Position numbers and translations under genes: made by a program
In this document: positions 4,396 through 27,960 of the stretch, in pieces
Layout: every line of letters starts with the position of its first letter
Position numbering within the stretch: position 1 is the stretch's first letter
Notes under the pieces: generated by a model
Seen by the model: the letters and a program-made list of their open reading frames with translations, nothing else
What the model was told of the DNA's origin: nothing
Database searches by the model: none
DNA from: Ottowia sp.
GTDB taxonomy: Bacteria; Pseudomonadota; Gammaproteobacteria; Burkholderiales; Burkholderiaceae
Assembly: GCA_020853585.1 (NCBI GenBank)
Contig: JADYYQ010000052.1
Location: 1 to 36,190, forward strand
Direction of reading: 5' to 3'
DNA length: 36,190 nucleotides

Positions 4396-7218
4396 TTAGA
4401 AAACAAGTTTAAAACTGGCTATACCTGTATGGGTGTATTCGTAACGTTTAAAGATACCTAGATAATCGATAAAGATACGTGCATTTTTAGCCACATCAAT
4501 ATCGATGCCTAAGCCTAATAAACTGCGCCAACGTCCCATGTCCGGTGAAGTAGCGCTAAAAGCGGGCAAATTAGCGAAAGCGGCAAAAGAGGTGTCGAGA
4601 TTGATTTGCTTGTCCCAAAGTTCGTAACCAAACCCGACACTGGCGCGGGGTGCAATGCGTCGCCCATTGATCATGTCAATATGTTTGATTTCAAAGTTAG
4701 CTTGCGCTTCGAGGTTGTTAAGTCGCGCACTGCCCACTTGCAGATTAAGGTTGCCCGCACCACTTTCAGTGTAGGCGTTGGTGTGGCTATGCAAGTAGGC
4801 AAGTCCTAAGCTGGGTGTCATATGGAGATCGCCCTGATGCAAACGGTAACCGGTTGATAGACGGGTGCCAAAAAAGCGTAGTGTTGAATCCGCATTTGCA
4901 GTGAGATTTGTGCTGCTTGAGATGGGAATATTTCGGCGATTATGGGTGAGCGCGCGTCCCGCATTGATTTGTCCGCGTACATACCAGTTCTCATTATTGT
5001 AGGCACCATACAGGGCTAACGCTAAGGTGTCTGCTTTGGTTTGCGCTTGATTTTGCTGCCAGTCTAATACACTGTGTTGCGTATTAAGCGCCATACCCAG
5101 GCGCCAACTATCTATGGCGCGGTCAAAGCCGATGCTTAAGCCTGAAGCGCCACTGCGATAACTATTGCTTGCCTCATGTTCACTGCGTTGCCCCCAACTG
5201 CCCATGACTTGTGCCCACGCTCCCCAAGGGGTGGCTTTAGCGAAATGATGTGCGGGTAAATCATTTTCGAGCGAGGCGAGTAACGATGTGGCGGTTTGTT
5301 CTGTTTGTGCGCTACGGGTTGCCATGTTTAAGCGTTGATCTAACTGTGTACCGAAAGCCTGGATGTGACCTTGAAGTGCGCTATACCCGCCGGTCAGTGT
5401 TTCACCTTGAATGGCTTGTAACATCGATGCGGCTTGGGCGATTGTCTGCGCTTGCAGCATATTGATGGCATAAGCACCTAACTCTCCAGTAAGTGCAGAG
5501 GGAGAAATACTATCGAGTGCGTGGGCGACACCTTGCGTATTCACAGAGCTACCCGCAGCCTGTGCAAAAGTTAAGGCTGAGCGTTGAACGATAAGATTTA
5601 ATTGCGTTGGACTGCTAAAGGTAAGTTGATAGTTATAGAAAGGTAAGCTGGTTTGCCCCAATACATTGCCGCTGATGGCTGGGGTGCCATTCACATAAAT
5701 CGGCGTACCGGTTATTGCCACGGGTTGTGCCACGCTACTTTGTCCTGGGGCTAGGTGAGCAGCAATTTGATTGCCTCCGAGTACATTAACCGCACCATTG
5801 ATATTGAAGGTGCGAGCCTGTAGTAGTGGGCGTTGATTCACCGCAATGTTGTAAGTTAAATTACTTCCCGCTGCGAGGCTCACAATACCTTTTGCGGTAC
5901 TGCCGTACTGTGCACCGGGTTGGAGTTGCCAAGTGCCTGCTTGAATCGTGGTGTTATCTTGATAGCCGCTTGAGTTTCCTCCTTGCTGCCACGTGCCCGT
6001 ACCTTGCTTGATAATTTGGTTGGGTTCTATTTGGCTTGTGACGCTATTAAGTCCCCCGCCATCACTCGCAACGCCGTCTTGCATATCAATCAATGTATTT
6101 GCTTCGGTATTCAGTATTAATGTGGCGGGTCCGATAGACGCTTGCGGTTGATTTAGAAAAGCCCTTAAATCGGCAGCGCTTAAATATATCGCTTCATATC
6201 GTATGCCGAGTGCATCACTGACACGATTACCTTGAAAAAGCACAGGCGTGCTGGGATCCGTGGCAGTAATGGTCACCGCGGAATTATCAAGAAAGATAGC
6301 GCCCCCTTGGGCCGTACTATTTGGGGCATTGACTTGATTATTTAAGAATTGCGGATTCACCAACATGACATTTGCTTCAAGAGGTAATGCAAGCGCACCA
6401 CCATAAGCGTTGTTCCCGCTGCTTGCTGTGTTGGTTACGCTGTTATTTATGAAAGTGGCGGGCGCATTAAAAATAGCGGTGGAATTAAGATTAGTCGAAG
6501 GGGCTTTAATCGCGATAGCGATTGCGCCTGCCATAGCCAAACCGCCACCCGACGCGTTAACGACATTACCGCTAAAAGAAGAAGGTTGGTTAAATGTAAG
6601 TACCGAGCCAGAACTAATTAACGCCCCTCCCACCGCGATACTTGGATTTCCTAATGTGCCCGTACCATTTACTACGTTATTGCTAAATATGACTGAGCCG
6701 TTAAAGGTGAGTGCCGACTGATAGTTCACCAGTGCCCCCCCTACGGCCACATGGGCATCGTTAATGGCATTGTTTGTGAATGTGGCATTGCCGTTAAAAA
6801 TAACAGTGCTATTGCCCGTTGCCATAGTGGGTGGCGAGATCATCAGCGCAGTGCCTAGTGCGACGCCTCCTTGCATAGGGTCAGGGGAAATGATGGCGCT
6901 ATCGAAAATAAAATTGCCATTCCATATGATGATCGGGTTAGCGCTATTGCCTCCTGTCGCGAACAGCGCTTGATTACTTCCTGCGCCGCTGAAGGTAATC
7001 GCTGAATTTGTTGGATTATTGATGGTTAAGTTGTAATTTAAATCGAGCAAGGTGCCCCAATTAATGGGCGTCGCTGTCATACTAATAACGGTTTCTTGAT
7101 TGGTAATGGCTGTTTGTAGGTCAATAAAACTATTCGCCGATATATCCGCCCAAGCAACAGCGGCGCTTAAACTGACTGCTAGGGTAGATACGCCATATCT
7201 GATTAACGCTAGAGTCAT
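4396..7218 (-). CDS. Classical (type Va) autotransporter with Pmp-like passenger repeats
   Basis: The protein has 940 residues. A signal peptide (about 1-24, ending AVAWA) precedes a passenger of beta-helix character (about 25-620) and a C-terminal outer-membrane barrel (about 663-940) that ends in a terminal Phe (SFKLVF). The passenger has FxxN motifs at 141, 147, 178, 215, 256, 291 and 328, alternating with GGAL or GGAI at 160, 197, 273 and 305, which is the hallmark of chlamydial polymorphic membrane protein repeats. The second half has the asparagine- and glycine-rich GTWQxQPG style seen in other autotransporters. GGAG at 7226-7229 sits seven bases before the ATG. It stands alone, with no secretion partner needed. 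A role in adhesion to host or other cells is inference from the architecture; the ligand is unknown. Confidence 0.9.
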   Translation of the reverse strand: MTLALIRYGVSTLAVSLSAAVAWADISANSFIDLQTAITNQETVISMTATPINWGTLLDLNYNLTINNPTNSAITFSGAGSNQALFATGGNSANPIIIWNGNFIFDSAIISPDPMQGGVALGTALMISPPTMATGNSTVIFNGNATFTNNAINDAHVAVGGALVNYQSALTFNGSVIFSNNVVNGTGTLGNPSIAVGGALISSGSVLTFNQPSSFSGNVVNASGGGLAMAGAIAIAIKAPSTNLNSTAIFNAPATFINNSVTNTASSGNNAYGGALALPLEANVMLVNPQFLNNQVNAPNSTAQGGAIFLDNSAVTITATDPSTPVLFQGNRVSDALGIRYEAIYLSAADLRAFLNQPQASIGPATLILNTEANTLIDMQDGVASDGGGLNSVTSQIEPNQIIKQGTGTWQQGGNSSGYQDNTTIQAGTWQLQPGAQYGSTAKGIVSLAAGSNLTYNIAVNQRPLLQARTFNINGAVNVLGGNQIAAHLAPGQSSVAQPVAITGTPIYVNGTPAISGNVLGQTSLPFYNYQLTFSSPTQLNLIVQRSALTFAQAAGSSVNTQGVAHALDSISPSALTGELGAYAINMLQAQTIAQAASMLQAIQGETLTGGYSALQGHIQAFGTQLDQRLNMATRSAQTEQTATSLLASLENDLPAHHFAKATPWGAWAQVMGSWGQRSEHEASNSYRSGASGLSIGFDRAIDSWRLGMALNTQHSVLDWQQNQAQTKADTLALALYGAYNNENWYVRGQINAGRALTHNRRNIPISSSTNLTANADSTLRFFGTRLSTGYRLHQGDLHMTPSLGLAYLHSHTNAYTESGAGNLNLQVGSARLNNLEAQANFEIKHIDMINGRRIAPRASVGFGYELWDKQINLDTSFAAFANLPAFSATSPDMGRWRSLLGLGIDIDVAKNARIFIDYLGIFKRYEYTHTGIASFKLVF

Positions 7219-22752: not shown

Positions 22753-25700
22753 ATGGGCTATTTCATGTACAAACATTTTCACTTTCGACATATGCATGTG
22801 CGTAGTGCATCACAAAAATATTTTTTTGCTCGGTGTTTGGTCATGGTGGTTCGTGGCTTATTAGTGAGTACTTCACTGTCTATGAGCGCGTATGCGCCGG
22901 CATTACCCTTACCTGCATCCGGCGCTTTGCCAAGTGGGGGTGTGGTGAGCTCGGGCAATGGTGTGATCAGCAGCAGCGGTACCCAGATGAACGTGACGCA
23001 AAGTAGTCAAAAACTAGTGATTAATTGGAATAGCTTTGATATCGGCAGCAATGCCGCGGTCAATTTTAATCAGCCCAATGCACAAGCAGTGGCACTCAAT
23101 CGCATCAATAGTACAAGTCCCTCACAAATTTACGGACGCTTAACTGCGAATGGGCAACTATTTTTTATCAATCCAAATGGTGTGGTGTTTGGCCCTGGAT
23201 CACAAGTGAATGCCGCCGCATTAATTGTCTCGACACACAATTTAAGCGATGCTAATTTCTTATCAGGCAACTATTTATTTAATCCGGTGAGTGTTAACAG
23301 CGCCGCGATTTTGAATCAAGGCAGTATTCAAGTACATAACGGCGGTGTGGTGACATTGATAGCTCACAACATCAATAATGTTGGAAGTATCAGCGCACCG
23401 GGCGGGACGATTGGTTTATTAGCAGGCGATACGGTTACCGTGCCTTTAAGCCTTCAAGGCAGTCATCCTTTTATGGTGAGTGCCACCAGCGCTGGTGATG
23501 CCAGCATTATCAATAGCGGTACATTAAGTGCAGCCGGTGGAACGATACAGATCAGCGCATTAAATAGTGCGAGCAGTAGCAATGCAACGACACTGACCAA
23601 TAATGCAGTGATCAACAATAGCGGCATCATCGATGTCAGCAGCAATACAAACAATGGCGGCAGTATCTACACAGATAGTGGTGTGATAGGCATCAACCAA
23701 AGCAGCGGCACATTACTTGCAACAAGTAGCCAAGGCCTAGGCGGCAATATCACGATACTGGGCGATAAAGTGGGCTTACTCGAAAATAGTCAAACCAATG
23801 CGGACGGTGCATTAGGTGGCGGCACAATATTGATCGGCGGTAACTGGCACGGTGAAGGTCCCGAACACAATGCAAACGTAGTGTATATAGATCGAGCAGC
23901 GACTATTCACGCGGATGCCACAAGCCAAGGTGATGGCGGCCAAGTGGTGTTGTGGTCAGATGACTATACCGGTTTTTATGGCCTTATTAGTGCGCGAGGT
24001 GGCAAACTCGGTGGCAATGGCGGTCAAGTTGAAACATCTAGCAAAAAAACCTTGATTGTTTCAGGTGGACGTGTGGTGCTTTTTGCTGCGCAGGGTGGTG
24101 TCGGTCGATGGTTGTTAGATCCCGGTAATGTGACGATTAGTGCGGCTGCCACTACGATTGTTCCCGCGGCCAATGTTTATACGGCACCCGTGAGTAGCAT
24201 GGGGTATGTGAGCGTGGCCGATATCGATGCGGCTCTTGCTAATGGTACGAGTGTTACGGTGACAACAGGTCTTGCAAGTCCCGATGGTGTGTATGGTCAT
24301 ATGTATGTGTTGAGCTCAATTAATCCGCTGATGACAAAGGGCAATGCCACGCTTACCTTAACTGCAGCCTTAGATATTTCTGTTGCGTCGGGTGTAAATA
24401 TTGGTCCTGCTGCGACGAGTACGAATGCGCTCAATTTAGTATTTAATGCCAACAGTGCGATTGTGATCGGCGGTAATTTAAGTACAAACGGCGGCAGTAT
24501 TTTGTTTAACGGTAATACCTCAGTACAGAACTCAACTGTTGCACAAACATTTTTGACCAATGGTGGCGCGGTTACATTTGGGGGTGCGAATGGTCGGGCC
24601 CTTCTTATTGCGAATACACGTGGATTCAACATTGATACGACGGTGGCAAATGGGCATGCCGGTGCGGTGACATTTAATGGCACCGTGGATTCAGGAAATC
24701 AATTTAGTTACGTTGCGGGTACGGTAAATTGGTTGCAGGCTCATCTGGGTGCGCAGGGATATGGATGTACTTTGGTAAATCCGGGTGGGTGTGCTGCATC
24801 ACAACATCCCAACGCCATTGGCGCAAGTTACCTTGCAACCATTAATAGTGCTTTTGAAAATTCTTTAGCTGGTTTGTCAACGTGCAGTGCGACCGGCACA
24901 GGTTGTTTCTCCTCAGCATGGTTAGGCGGCTCACGTCTTACTGCGGATCTTTTGACGACGACTTACGATCCAGTAACGCATCAATATTACTTTTCTAATG
25001 CAGCAATGAAAGCGGCGTTAGGGTGCGCTGCTGCATCGACAACGTGTTCACCCACACTGACAAGTGCGCCCAATGGTTTACCTATCGCGACATGGCAGTG
25101 GGTGAGTGGTCCGCTTAGTTTGGCAAATAATGGTAAAGGCACTGTTTTTTATAACACGACCACAAATAGTGCAACGGGCCCAGTCAATGGGGTGTACACC
25201 AATTGGAATAGTTCCACGGTAGGCACGGGTGAGCCAAATAATGCGGGTAATGAATATGCGCTGCAATTCACTGGCAGTAATGGGGTATGGAATGACCTTA
25301 ACCCGAGTTCTTCGGGTAGCGCAACGGGCTATATTGTTGAGACAAATCTGGCGCACTCAGTCCTTACGATTAATGCTGGCACAGGTGCGAATGCGGGTGT
25401 GGTGACCTTTAACGGTTTGGTGGGAAATGCGCATCCATTGGCGTCCCTCAATGTAACGGGTCAGATTGCGATGCAAGGCGGTGGTGTGACGACCGATAGC
25501 TTGCAAGTTTATGCAGGTGATATGAACCTGGGTGCAAACCAAAATACGATACTTAAACAGACCGGAACAATTTATAACGTTGATGGCACGACCTCCGTGA
25601 GCAGTGTTAATTTTCAATTGCAGCCCGGTCATGTGATTACCAATGGCAATAGCAATGAAACAAGTTTGACGATTGATACAACCGGTAGCATCAATCTTAA

Positions 25701-26400
25701 TGCGGGTAATAATATTAGCTCGTCGGGTAGTAATGGCAAACTGAATGTCACATTAAATAGCGACAGCGCAGGGGCATTACTGGGTGTGACTGACACAGGT
25801 ATTCATATTGCCGGTGCGGCGATTACCACGAATGGCGGGAGTATTGCTTTAGGGGGCGGCGCAGGTACGGGTACGAATGCAGCCTTGGGGATTGCGTTAA
25901 CCAATGGCGGTTCGCTTAATTCTGCCGGAGGCAATATCGCGTTGACGAGTGCAGCCAATACGGCAATCAGTATGGATGCTGCTTCACAGATTGCAGCCGG
26001 TGCGGGCAATATCAGTTTGATTGCTGACACCATGCAATTACCTGTTGCGGTGAGTTCGCGTATTACCGGCTCAGGGTCGTTAACACTCAATACCTATACA
26101 GCGAACAGAGCGATTGAATTAGGGGATACCAGCGGATCCGGGCTTAATCTTGCCGCAGGTTTATTTGGTGGAGCAAATGCGACATTGGCACCGGGGTTTA
26201 GTGTAATTACCGTGGGTGGTGCGAATGCGGGTGCGATTACCTTAGGTGCCAACACCACCTTTACAAGTAATTTAGCATTGGTAAGTGGTGGGGCAATTAC
26301 ATTAAATGGTGCGTTGAATAACAGCGGTAACACCGTTACATTGACGGGGGGTAATAATGCCTTGGTAAGTGGTAACGGCAATATTACGGCAAGTGGATAG
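22753..26400 (+). CDS. TpsA-type two-partner secretion adhesin with C-type-lectin-like domain (5' part, ends at in-frame TAG)
   Basis: The first 1215 residues of a filamentous-haemagglutinin-like exoprotein. A long N-terminal region with signal peptide (cleavage near SAYA, residue 48) leads into the TPS secretion domain (about 50-175; NWNSFDIG, NPNG at 140-143), followed by a beta-helix of Gly/Asn/Ser-rich repeats. Embedded at about 690-865 is a C-type-lectin-like domain: YLATI at 693, W-G core AWLGG, WQWVSG, EPN at 827-829, WND at 846-848 and closing GYIVE. Six Cys lie in and around it in three close pairs. The frame stops at TAG 26398-26400 and continues in phase for 519 more codons. ATG 22753 has no clear ribosome binding site; ATG 22765 is an alternative. 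No TpsB transporter is in the window. Confidence 0.85.
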   Translation: MGYFMYKHFHFRHMHVRSASQKYFFARCLVMVVRGLLVSTSLSMSAYAPALPLPASGALPSGGVVSSGNGVISSSGTQMNVTQSSQKLVINWNSFDIGSNAAVNFNQPNAQAVALNRINSTSPSQIYGRLTANGQLFFINPNGVVFGPGSQVNAAALIVSTHNLSDANFLSGNYLFNPVSVNSAAILNQGSIQVHNGGVVTLIAHNINNVGSISAPGGTIGLLAGDTVTVPLSLQGSHPFMVSATSAGDASIINSGTLSAAGGTIQISALNSASSSNATTLTNNAVINNSGIIDVSSNTNNGGSIYTDSGVIGINQSSGTLLATSSQGLGGNITILGDKVGLLENSQTNADGALGGGTILIGGNWHGEGPEHNANVVYIDRAATIHADATSQGDGGQVVLWSDDYTGFYGLISARGGKLGGNGGQVETSSKKTLIVSGGRVVLFAAQGGVGRWLLDPGNVTISAAATTIVPAANVYTAPVSSMGYVSVADIDAALANGTSVTVTTGLASPDGVYGHMYVLSSINPLMTKGNATLTLTAALDISVASGVNIGPAATSTNALNLVFNANSAIVIGGNLSTNGGSILFNGNTSVQNSTVAQTFLTNGGAVTFGGANGRALLIANTRGFNIDTTVANGHAGAVTFNGTVDSGNQFSYVAGTVNWLQAHLGAQGYGCTLVNPGGCAASQHPNAIGASYLATINSAFENSLAGLSTCSATGTGCFSSAWLGGSRLTADLLTTTYDPVTHQYYFSNAAMKAALGCAAASTTCSPTLTSAPNGLPIATWQWVSGPLSLANNGKGTVFYNTTTNSATGPVNGVYTNWNSSTVGTGEPNNAGNEYALQFTGSNGVWNDLNPSSSGSATGYIVETNLAHSVLTINAGTGANAGVVTFNGLVGNAHPLASLNVTGQIAMQGGGVTTDSLQVYAGDMNLGANQNTILKQTGTIYNVDGTTSVSSVNFQLQPGHVITNGNSNETSLTIDTTGSINLNAGNNISSSGSNGKLNVTLNSDSAGALLGVTDTGIHIAGAAITTNGGSIALGGGAGTGTNAALGIALTNGGSLNSAGGNIALTSAANTAISMDAASQIAAGAGNISLIADTMQLPVAVSSRITGSGSLTLNTYTANRAIELGDTSGSGLNLAAGLFGGANATLAPGFSVITVGGANAGAITLGANTTFTSNLALVSGGAITLNGALNNSGNTVTLTGGNNALVSGNGNITASG

Positions 26401-27960
26401 TTGTTAAACGGTAGTGGTGCTATCTATGCTTTGAATACCGCAGCCAATAACAATGTAAATACCTTAGCGGCAACGGGTGCGGCAAGTATTAATTTTAAAA
26501 ATAATCGTAGTTTGACCGTGGGTACGGTGGGTACGGTTTCGGGTGTGTCAGCGGCAGGCAATATTACGATTGCCGCAGTAGACGCTCAGGGTGTGAGTAG
26601 TGGTTCGGCAGTGGACTTAACCTTAAACAACGCGGTACGTAGTACGAGCGGCAATATTGCTTTGACTGCAGGGCGTGCGTTTTACAATAACAATGCGACT
26701 GATACGGGGATTGTTGTTGCATCAGGTAGTCGCTACACCGTCTATTCTTATTCACCTATGAATTTGGCTGGAGGGGGCAGTGCTCGAGGTATGACGCTGA
26801 ATGCAAGTACACAAAAACACTACAACGTAAGTAATCCAGCTAGCGCAAATTATGCCAGTGGTAATTGGTTTTTATATGCGATGCAACCCACGCTTACAGC
26901 GGGTATCAATGGGGCCACGATAACTTATGGGGACCTTTTTACCCCCAGCTTTACCGGGTATACCGGTTTTATCGATGGTGATACGAGCAGTACGGTGACC
27001 GGTGCGCCTGGGTTAATTGTGAGTGGTGGCAGATCAACTTCGGGTAACTACACCGCGGGTCAACACAATATGACAGTGGATCTTACGAATGTGGCCACTA
27101 ATTTAGGCTATGCCTTTACGTCAGGTGGTGCGCAATTAACTGTCAACAAAAAAGAGATCGTGATAACCGGTGGCACGGTCACCGCTACTTCACGGCCTTA
27201 TAGCGGCACGGCTAACAATATTGTGGCGGTAAACGATACGGGGTTTCATCTGAGTGGGGTGATGACCAATGATGTGATTGCTTCGAGTGTGTCAACGGGT
27301 ATTGGTCGGATGCAAGACGGCAATGCAGGTGTTAATAAACATGTTGTTGTTGACTTAAATAGTTTGATCAAAGGTGCGGATGCCGGCAATTATTTTGCGA
27401 ATACGGTTGCGGTATCGACTACGGTGACTATTTCTCCGGTGCAACTTATTGCTAATGCAAGCTCTGTGACCAAAGTGTTTGACGGCACACTTAATGTGCC
27501 GGGGAAAGGTCAAGTACAGCTTAATTTGCAACCTGGCGATCAGTTGATAGGTAGTCTTTTTTCGGAGTCGTATGCAAATGCGATGCCACAAGGTAAGGGC
27601 GGAAGTGTGGTACTTGTTATTAACCCCAGTGCAGCGTGGTCGATTAGCAATGCTTATGGTGATGCATTGCAAAATTATTTGCTGCCAGTTGTCCTTAACA
27701 GCGCCTCGGGCACTATTTTGCCGATACCCAGTATTCCTGCCAATGGCAATAACCCGTTTATCAGCTTAGGCGGCGGCGATGATAATGACAATAACAACGG
27801 TGATGTAAATAATCCTCGCAATAGTGAAGGAAAAATGATGGTGGGGATGACTTGCACGATCTTTGATAAAACGCACGGTATTTGGCAGGGGTGTGGTGTG
27901 GTTAAAAATAGGCGTTTGGCCCATGCAAGATCGGGTAGCAATCCTGCGCTTATATTCTAA
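26401..27960 (+). pseudogene. 3' part of the TpsA adhesin, separated by one amber codon
   Basis: This is the in-phase continuation of the adhesin, 519 codons with no frameshift. The first 155 residues continue the beta-helix. Then come MBG/YDG-like immunoglobulin-type units: about 158-250 (ATITYGDLFTPSFTGYTGF to LTVNKKE), 251-348 (RPYSGTANN to VTISPVQL) and 349-430 (VTKVFDGTLN onward). An acidic Asp/Asn tail follows, then a terminal segment with Cys485 and Cys498, a pair like that needed for surface anchoring of Haemophilus HMW1. No credible start exists: the first codon is TTG with no ribosome binding site, so it is not an independent gene. It is either dead after a recent mutation or made by readthrough. 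It is listed as pseudogene for that reason. Confidence 0.7.

Follow-up and report, generated by a model that had tools for sequence, protein, structure and literature searches.

CdrA of Pseudomonas aeruginosa is a TpsA matrix adhesin that binds the mannose-rich Psl, and the aggregation it brings about is inhibited by mannose (PMC2847200, PMC7616799). It possesses MBG-type stalk repeats, and a C-terminal Cys hook holds it in the pore (PMC7616799). For FHA of Bordetella pertussis, the prototype TpsA beta-helix adhesin, a heparin-inhibitable lectin activity has been reported in work cited in PMC2847200. Intimin and invasin are outer-membrane-tethered adhesins that bear a C-type-lectin-like domain (CTLD) (PMC3008723). 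Ligand recognition by most TpsA adhesins is poorly resolved, and the sources that we read assign the sugar binding of neither CdrA nor FHA to any fold whose chemistry is known. To our knowledge, the lectin activity of FHA has not been attributed to any CTLD. Intimin and invasin are exported by way of an N-terminal barrel and carry Ig-like stalks that end in a protein-binding CTLD.

The locus described here lies in a stretch of 36,190 nucleotides from Ottowia sp., referred to below as the window. All features of the locus are on the forward strand. An open reading frame at 22753-26400, which ends at an in-frame TAG, encodes a TpsA-like (two-partner secretion, TPS) protein of 1215 amino acids. 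Residues 58-303 (22924-23661) constitute the TPS secretion domain, matched by Pfam PF05860 (111.9 bits, E=6.4e-32) and by TIGR01901 (85.1 bits, 2.2e-24), and the presence of an INPNG motif, of the NPNG type, further marks the domain as that of a TpsA exoprotein (type Vb). In a 398-residue structural model the CTLD is flanked on either side by a stretch of short beta strands of the kind typical of a beta-helix. The first stretch (24409-24687) is composed of regular short strands with pLDDT values mostly of about 83-91; the strands resume beyond the lectin domain at 25360-25602, and the sequences of both stretches are kept among TpsA relatives. A fold search with this model returned lectins only among the matches listed, so that the assignment of the flanks to a beta-helix draws on strand prediction and TPS family membership and not on a fold match. 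We read the product of this frame as a probable two-partner-secretion filament adhesin with a CTLD inserted in a predicted beta-helical rod. Another surface protein of the type V secreted kind is encoded elsewhere in the window, a 940-residue autotransporter-domain protein (PF03797) at 4396-7218 on the reverse strand.

A first-pass annotation of this DNA had proposed that residues 690-865, approximately, depart from the repeat pattern of the rod and adopt a C-type-lectin-like fold. The motifs that it named are all present at the places given. YLATI (residue 693, 24829-24843) corresponds to the conserved CTLD strand that precedes helix alphaB, and AWLGG (residue 722, 24916-24930), strand beta2 in the model, is the counterpart of the WIGL core motif; its Trp (W78 of alignment A3, which consists of 19 CTLD sequences from relatives gathered from whole genomes) is found in at least 90% of these domains. 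WQWVSG (residue 781, 25093-25110) is the conserved W-x-W ahead of the long loop, and it is followed by EPN (residues 827-829, 25231-25239) and WND (residues 846-848, 25288-25296). GYIVE (residues 859-863, 25327-25341) forms the closing strand beta5 (strand 214-219 of the model), and its Glu (E218) is invariant. The span proposed is, however, too short. Strand beta1 and helix alphaA (GNQFSYVAGTVNWLQAHLGAQ) lie ahead of YLATI, the helix being predicted at residues 660-667 (24730-24753) by DSSP of the AlphaFold2 model, and both the profile match and the predicted structure put the start of the domain near residue 644-648 (about 24688), some 45 residues earlier. The CTLD thus extends over 24688-25356 and is matched at 1.3e-25 by a profile from which the window sequence had been left out.

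Scans of the window domain itself with Pfam and NCBIfam yielded no lectin match, including to Lectin_C, and its relatives were used for this reason. One relative, L004, which is about 47-49% identical to the window sequence over the domain, passes Pfam Lectin_C (PF00059) with 27.4 bits against a cut-off of 22.6. When the window domain alone was compared with PDB sequences the best matches were mannose-binding proteins (E=0.0097), and the 19-sequence family profile matched 133 PDB sequences at E<=0.01, with a best value of 4.1e-13; the best 60 of these 133 were all C-type lectins or CTLD-bearing proteins. Designed Pizza proteins, which had topped the first profile search, owed their position to summed weak repeat matches and no longer appeared among the leading matches once the profile was widened. 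To guard against circular reasoning, another profile was built from the CTLDs of non-TpsA proteins only. It matched the window at 4.5e-9, compared with 0.31 for the best of 2,300 shuffles. Against the window's own genome, the alignment A3 profile matched the window CTLD and nothing else. Plasmid searches gave no CTLD match, one returning nothing and another only matches to the TPS part.

The predicted structure agrees with these results. An AlphaFold2 model of the CTLD, made with the 19-row alignment, has a mean pLDDT of 72.8 and a pTM of 0.76; block means are 82-85 from EPN to WND, and values below 50 are confined to inserts specific to the window copy. The order of elements, beta1-alphaA-beta1'-alphaB-beta2-loop-beta3-beta4-beta5, is that of the CTLD fold. 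Superposed with VIA-align on MBP-C in complex with Man-a1,3-Man (1kza), the model gives a Z of 16.1 and 1.7 Å rmsd over 113 of 115 residues, and in the whole comparison Z is at least 8 for 471 of 487 chains, with the best 50 all C-type lectins or CTLDs. Foldseek probabilities against C-type lectin chains are 0.98-1.00. Structure prediction had been suggested in the first-pass annotation, with a plain beta-helix named as the outcome that would tell against a lectin; a lectin fold was obtained and a plain beta-helix was not seen. The C-type-lectin-like identity is accordingly upheld by independent evidence from sequence, structure and phylogeny, and the window domain is genuinely homologous to the animal lectins that bind sugars by means of calcium. 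In the window copy, strand beta2 is separated from the W-x-W motif by a long insert modelled with low confidence, and this insert might change the domain.

The six cysteines to which attention had been drawn are indeed arranged in three close pairs in and near the domain (residues 672/680, 711/718 and 758/765, within 24766-25047). They are located in loop inserts that are missing from most relatives and have mostly low pLDDT, and the alignment rules them out as the classical CTLD disulfides; they do not sit in the CTLD core. Most relatives are Cys-free within the domain, but the first insert of L026 contains one such pair. The further suggestion that such pairs are unusual for TpsA proteins does not hold, because two other TpsA-like reading frames of the same genome also contain several of them; close Cys pairs look like a habit of the lineage and not a sign of a lectin. 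The two conserved disulfides of the animal CRD family are absent from the window domain, which we therefore assign to the CTLD superfamily only and not to the animal family, these cystines being typical of the latter but not defining for the superfamily.

The residues proposed to form the calcium site are strongly conserved. In alignment A3 the EPN column contains E in 18 of 19 sequences, P in all 19 and N in 18, and WND is kept as W in 19, N in 18 and D in 19 of 19; this supports, at the level of sequence, the assignment of both motifs to a calcium site. A further predicted ligand, E834 (25252-25254), is Glu in 18 of the 19. We take E827, N829, E834, N847 and D848 to match the main site at which mannose-type CRDs such as MBP bind calcium and sugar. 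By a count of residues, the spacing from E834 to N847 is one residue greater than that of the equivalent positions in MBP, which is within the variation among CTLD hairpins. These five residues would hold one calcium ion, and the conserved EPN/WND site suggests that the bound ion would take a sugar of the mannose, GlcNAc or fucose type. From this conservation we infer that the window CTLD binds sugar in a calcium-dependent manner. More generally, since the domain is a true lectin relative and the arrangement recurs in unrelated bacterial phyla, TpsA filaments that bear it probably grip sugars with it.

Other readings of the domain need to be weighed against this one. That the motifs are chance matches in an Asn/Gly-rich beta-helix sequence, with no lectin at all, might be argued from the failure of the window domain to match Lectin_C by itself. 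However, EPN...WND pairs are expected from composition alone at a frequency of about 2e-5 in a protein of such make-up and occurred in none of the 2,300 shuffles, and together with the profile matches, the phylogeny and the superposition on MBP-C, these controls lead us to reject this reading, to which we attach almost no weight. A different possibility is that the calcium is structural and that the domain has a protein as its ligand or merely spaces out the chain, in the manner of intimin, invasin and the receptor-binding CTLDs of phage DGR systems. Many bacterial domains with the CTLD fold are protein binders and the window copy has large inserts, both of which favour such a role. Against it, nearly all relatives, in several kinds of host protein, retain EPN, WND and the additional Glu, whereas the protein-binding CTLDs of bacteria that we know of typically lack the complete ligand set. 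We regard a protein-binding or spacer function as unlikely.

Whether the filament is displayed in this strain is a separate matter, which concerns the window copy alone and is compatible with a sugar-binding role for the family. The TAG at 26398-26400 is followed in the same frame by 519 open codons (26401-27960) that encode a YDG domain (about 27163-27399; PF18657, E=1.3e-8) and a C-x12-C pair (Cys 485 and 498 of the continuation, 27853-27894). A relative of similar layout, L026, has an uninterrupted frame of 1729 residues containing TPS, CTLD, YDG and MBG domains, and no TpsB gene was found within the window. All of this is consistent with a dead or dying gene, in a family that functions elsewhere. 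On the other hand, the codon-position base composition (GC) is equal before and after the TAG, as would be expected if the stop were recent or a sequencing error, and the N-terminal 1215 residues include a complete TPS domain and the CTLD and so could be secreted and released. The unchanged composition and the open frame of L026 suggest that the TAG probably is recent, or else an error of assembly or sequencing. Loss of display in this strain thus seems to us a serious possibility, though one that we would put somewhat below even. The window copy may be truncated ahead of the YDG domain and the Cys pair. If the TAG is real, the filament would be shortened, with the lectin kept and the stalk end and hook lost, and the product would be either released or non-functional.

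Taken together, these data make it probable, in our judgement, that the gene belongs to a family of TPS filament adhesins in which a calcium-dependent sugar-binding CTLD is inserted in the rod and serves in tethering. The N-terminal TPS domain would take the protein through a TpsB pore, the candidates being two TpsB (ShlB) genes found on other contigs of the window genome; a TpsB gene adjoins the TpsA-CTLD gene in two other genomes, G113 and that of L025. Seven further TPS-domain places were observed in the window genome, as against only these two detected TpsB genes. Once outside the cell, the secreted chain would fold into a beta-helical rod, with the CTLD predicted to lie between two turns about 645 residues from the N-terminus. 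The N- and C-terminal strands of CTLDs are generally adjacent, and for this reason the domain could bud sideways without breaking the rod. Full-length relatives end in YDG/MBG stalk repeats, some of them also in a C-terminal Cys pair; the C-x12-C form is present in L025 and L027 as well as in the window continuation and may, by analogy, be a CdrA-like hook. A C-terminal stalk and hook of this sort would place the lectin towards the outer end of the filament, where it could tether cells to matrix or to foreign glycans.

The same CTLD was found in TPS-domain or TpsA-like proteins of two Rhodopirellula species, a Comamonadaceae MAG, a Selenomonadaceae MAG and genome G113, and of two gammaproteobacterial, one alphaproteobacterial and two betaproteobacterial/Burkholderiales MAGs. 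It is located inside the predicted beta-helix of TpsA proteins in three phyla, Pseudomonadota, Planctomycetota and Bacillota. The TPS domain is present in the window protein and the seven relatives scanned. In most hosts the CTLD starts at residue 617-690, with starts at 994 in L024 and at 1276 in the longer frame of G113, and the Rhodopirellula proteins have two copies each. A tree was made of 38 CTLDs, chosen with resemblance to the window family as the guide. In it all 13 CTLDs of TpsA hosts fall into a single clade (support 100/99), a result that fits a single origin within TpsA followed by spread, though other captures may also have taken place. In close pairs of relatives dN/dS ranges over 0.06-0.10 in the CTLD, as against 0.12-0.16 in the preceding beta-helix, and comparison of these sequences argues that the CTLD is under purifying selection. 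Of 369 genomes sampled from the class, 122 contain TPS domains and at least four, the window's own among them, showed the TpsA CTLD, a lower bound since a single-sequence search was used; the combination is uncommon in the class.

Lectin domains with EPN were also seen in other surroundings. Flagellin-like proteins, three from Alphaproteobacteria MAGs and two from Burkholderiales genomes (G581 and G053), carry the same EPN/WND lectin domain in mid-chain; the alphaproteobacterial and Burkholderiales versions are apart in the tree, which suggests separate captures. Seven small Burkholderiales proteins consist of a signal peptide, one EPN CTLD and a PEP-CTERM-like tail. Stop-free frames with TPS domains reach 29,206 codons (G113:C1:290030) and 18,106 codons (G166:C1:301724) in genomes of only 1.9-2.0 Mb. 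We are inclined, by a little, to the broader view that TpsA filaments acquired an EPN-type calcium-dependent lectin module a single time and retained it towards the N-terminal, outer end of the rod, that it then spread over three phyla, and that related modules decorate flagellin filaments, giant cadherin-like adhesins and PEP-CTERM-like proteins; the module would then be a sugar-binding head that can be plugged into bacterial surface structures in general.

How does this locus compare with the systems described at the outset? Bacterial adhesins with a CTLD, such as intimin and invasin, are already known, as are sugar-binding TpsA adhesins. What appears to be new is a mannose-type CTLD built into a TpsA rod: the literature searched, which took in few subscription journals, yielded no description of a TpsA protein with a CTLD. 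A TpsA subfamily with a recognisable, predicted calcium-dependent lectin site offers a ligand mechanism that is directly testable with EDTA, mannose competition and point mutants. Intimin and invasin share a CTLD with the window protein but differ from it in secretion route, in stalks, in the placement of the CTLD and in their protein ligand. CdrA may be regarded as the nearest working analogue, the window gene being likewise of the TPS-secreted type, with a YDG domain and a C-terminal Cys pair, a resemblance at the level of domains. In contrast to CdrA, the gene described here is broken by a stop and lacks a neighbouring TpsB, and the published description of CdrA names a haemagglutination domain and a predicted glycine-rich sugar-binding region and not a CTLD. 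The domain itself is closest to the mannose-type CRDs of animals (MBP-A and MBP-C, surfactant protein D, langerin), with which it has in common the predicted fold (Z about 14.6-16.1), the EPN/E/WND pattern and the WIGL-like and W-x-W motifs. It differs from them in its lack of the two conserved cystines, in its long window-specific loops and in its setting within a secreted bacterial beta-helix. This comparison suggests that the design of an animal-type CRD is used on bacterial filaments in three phyla.
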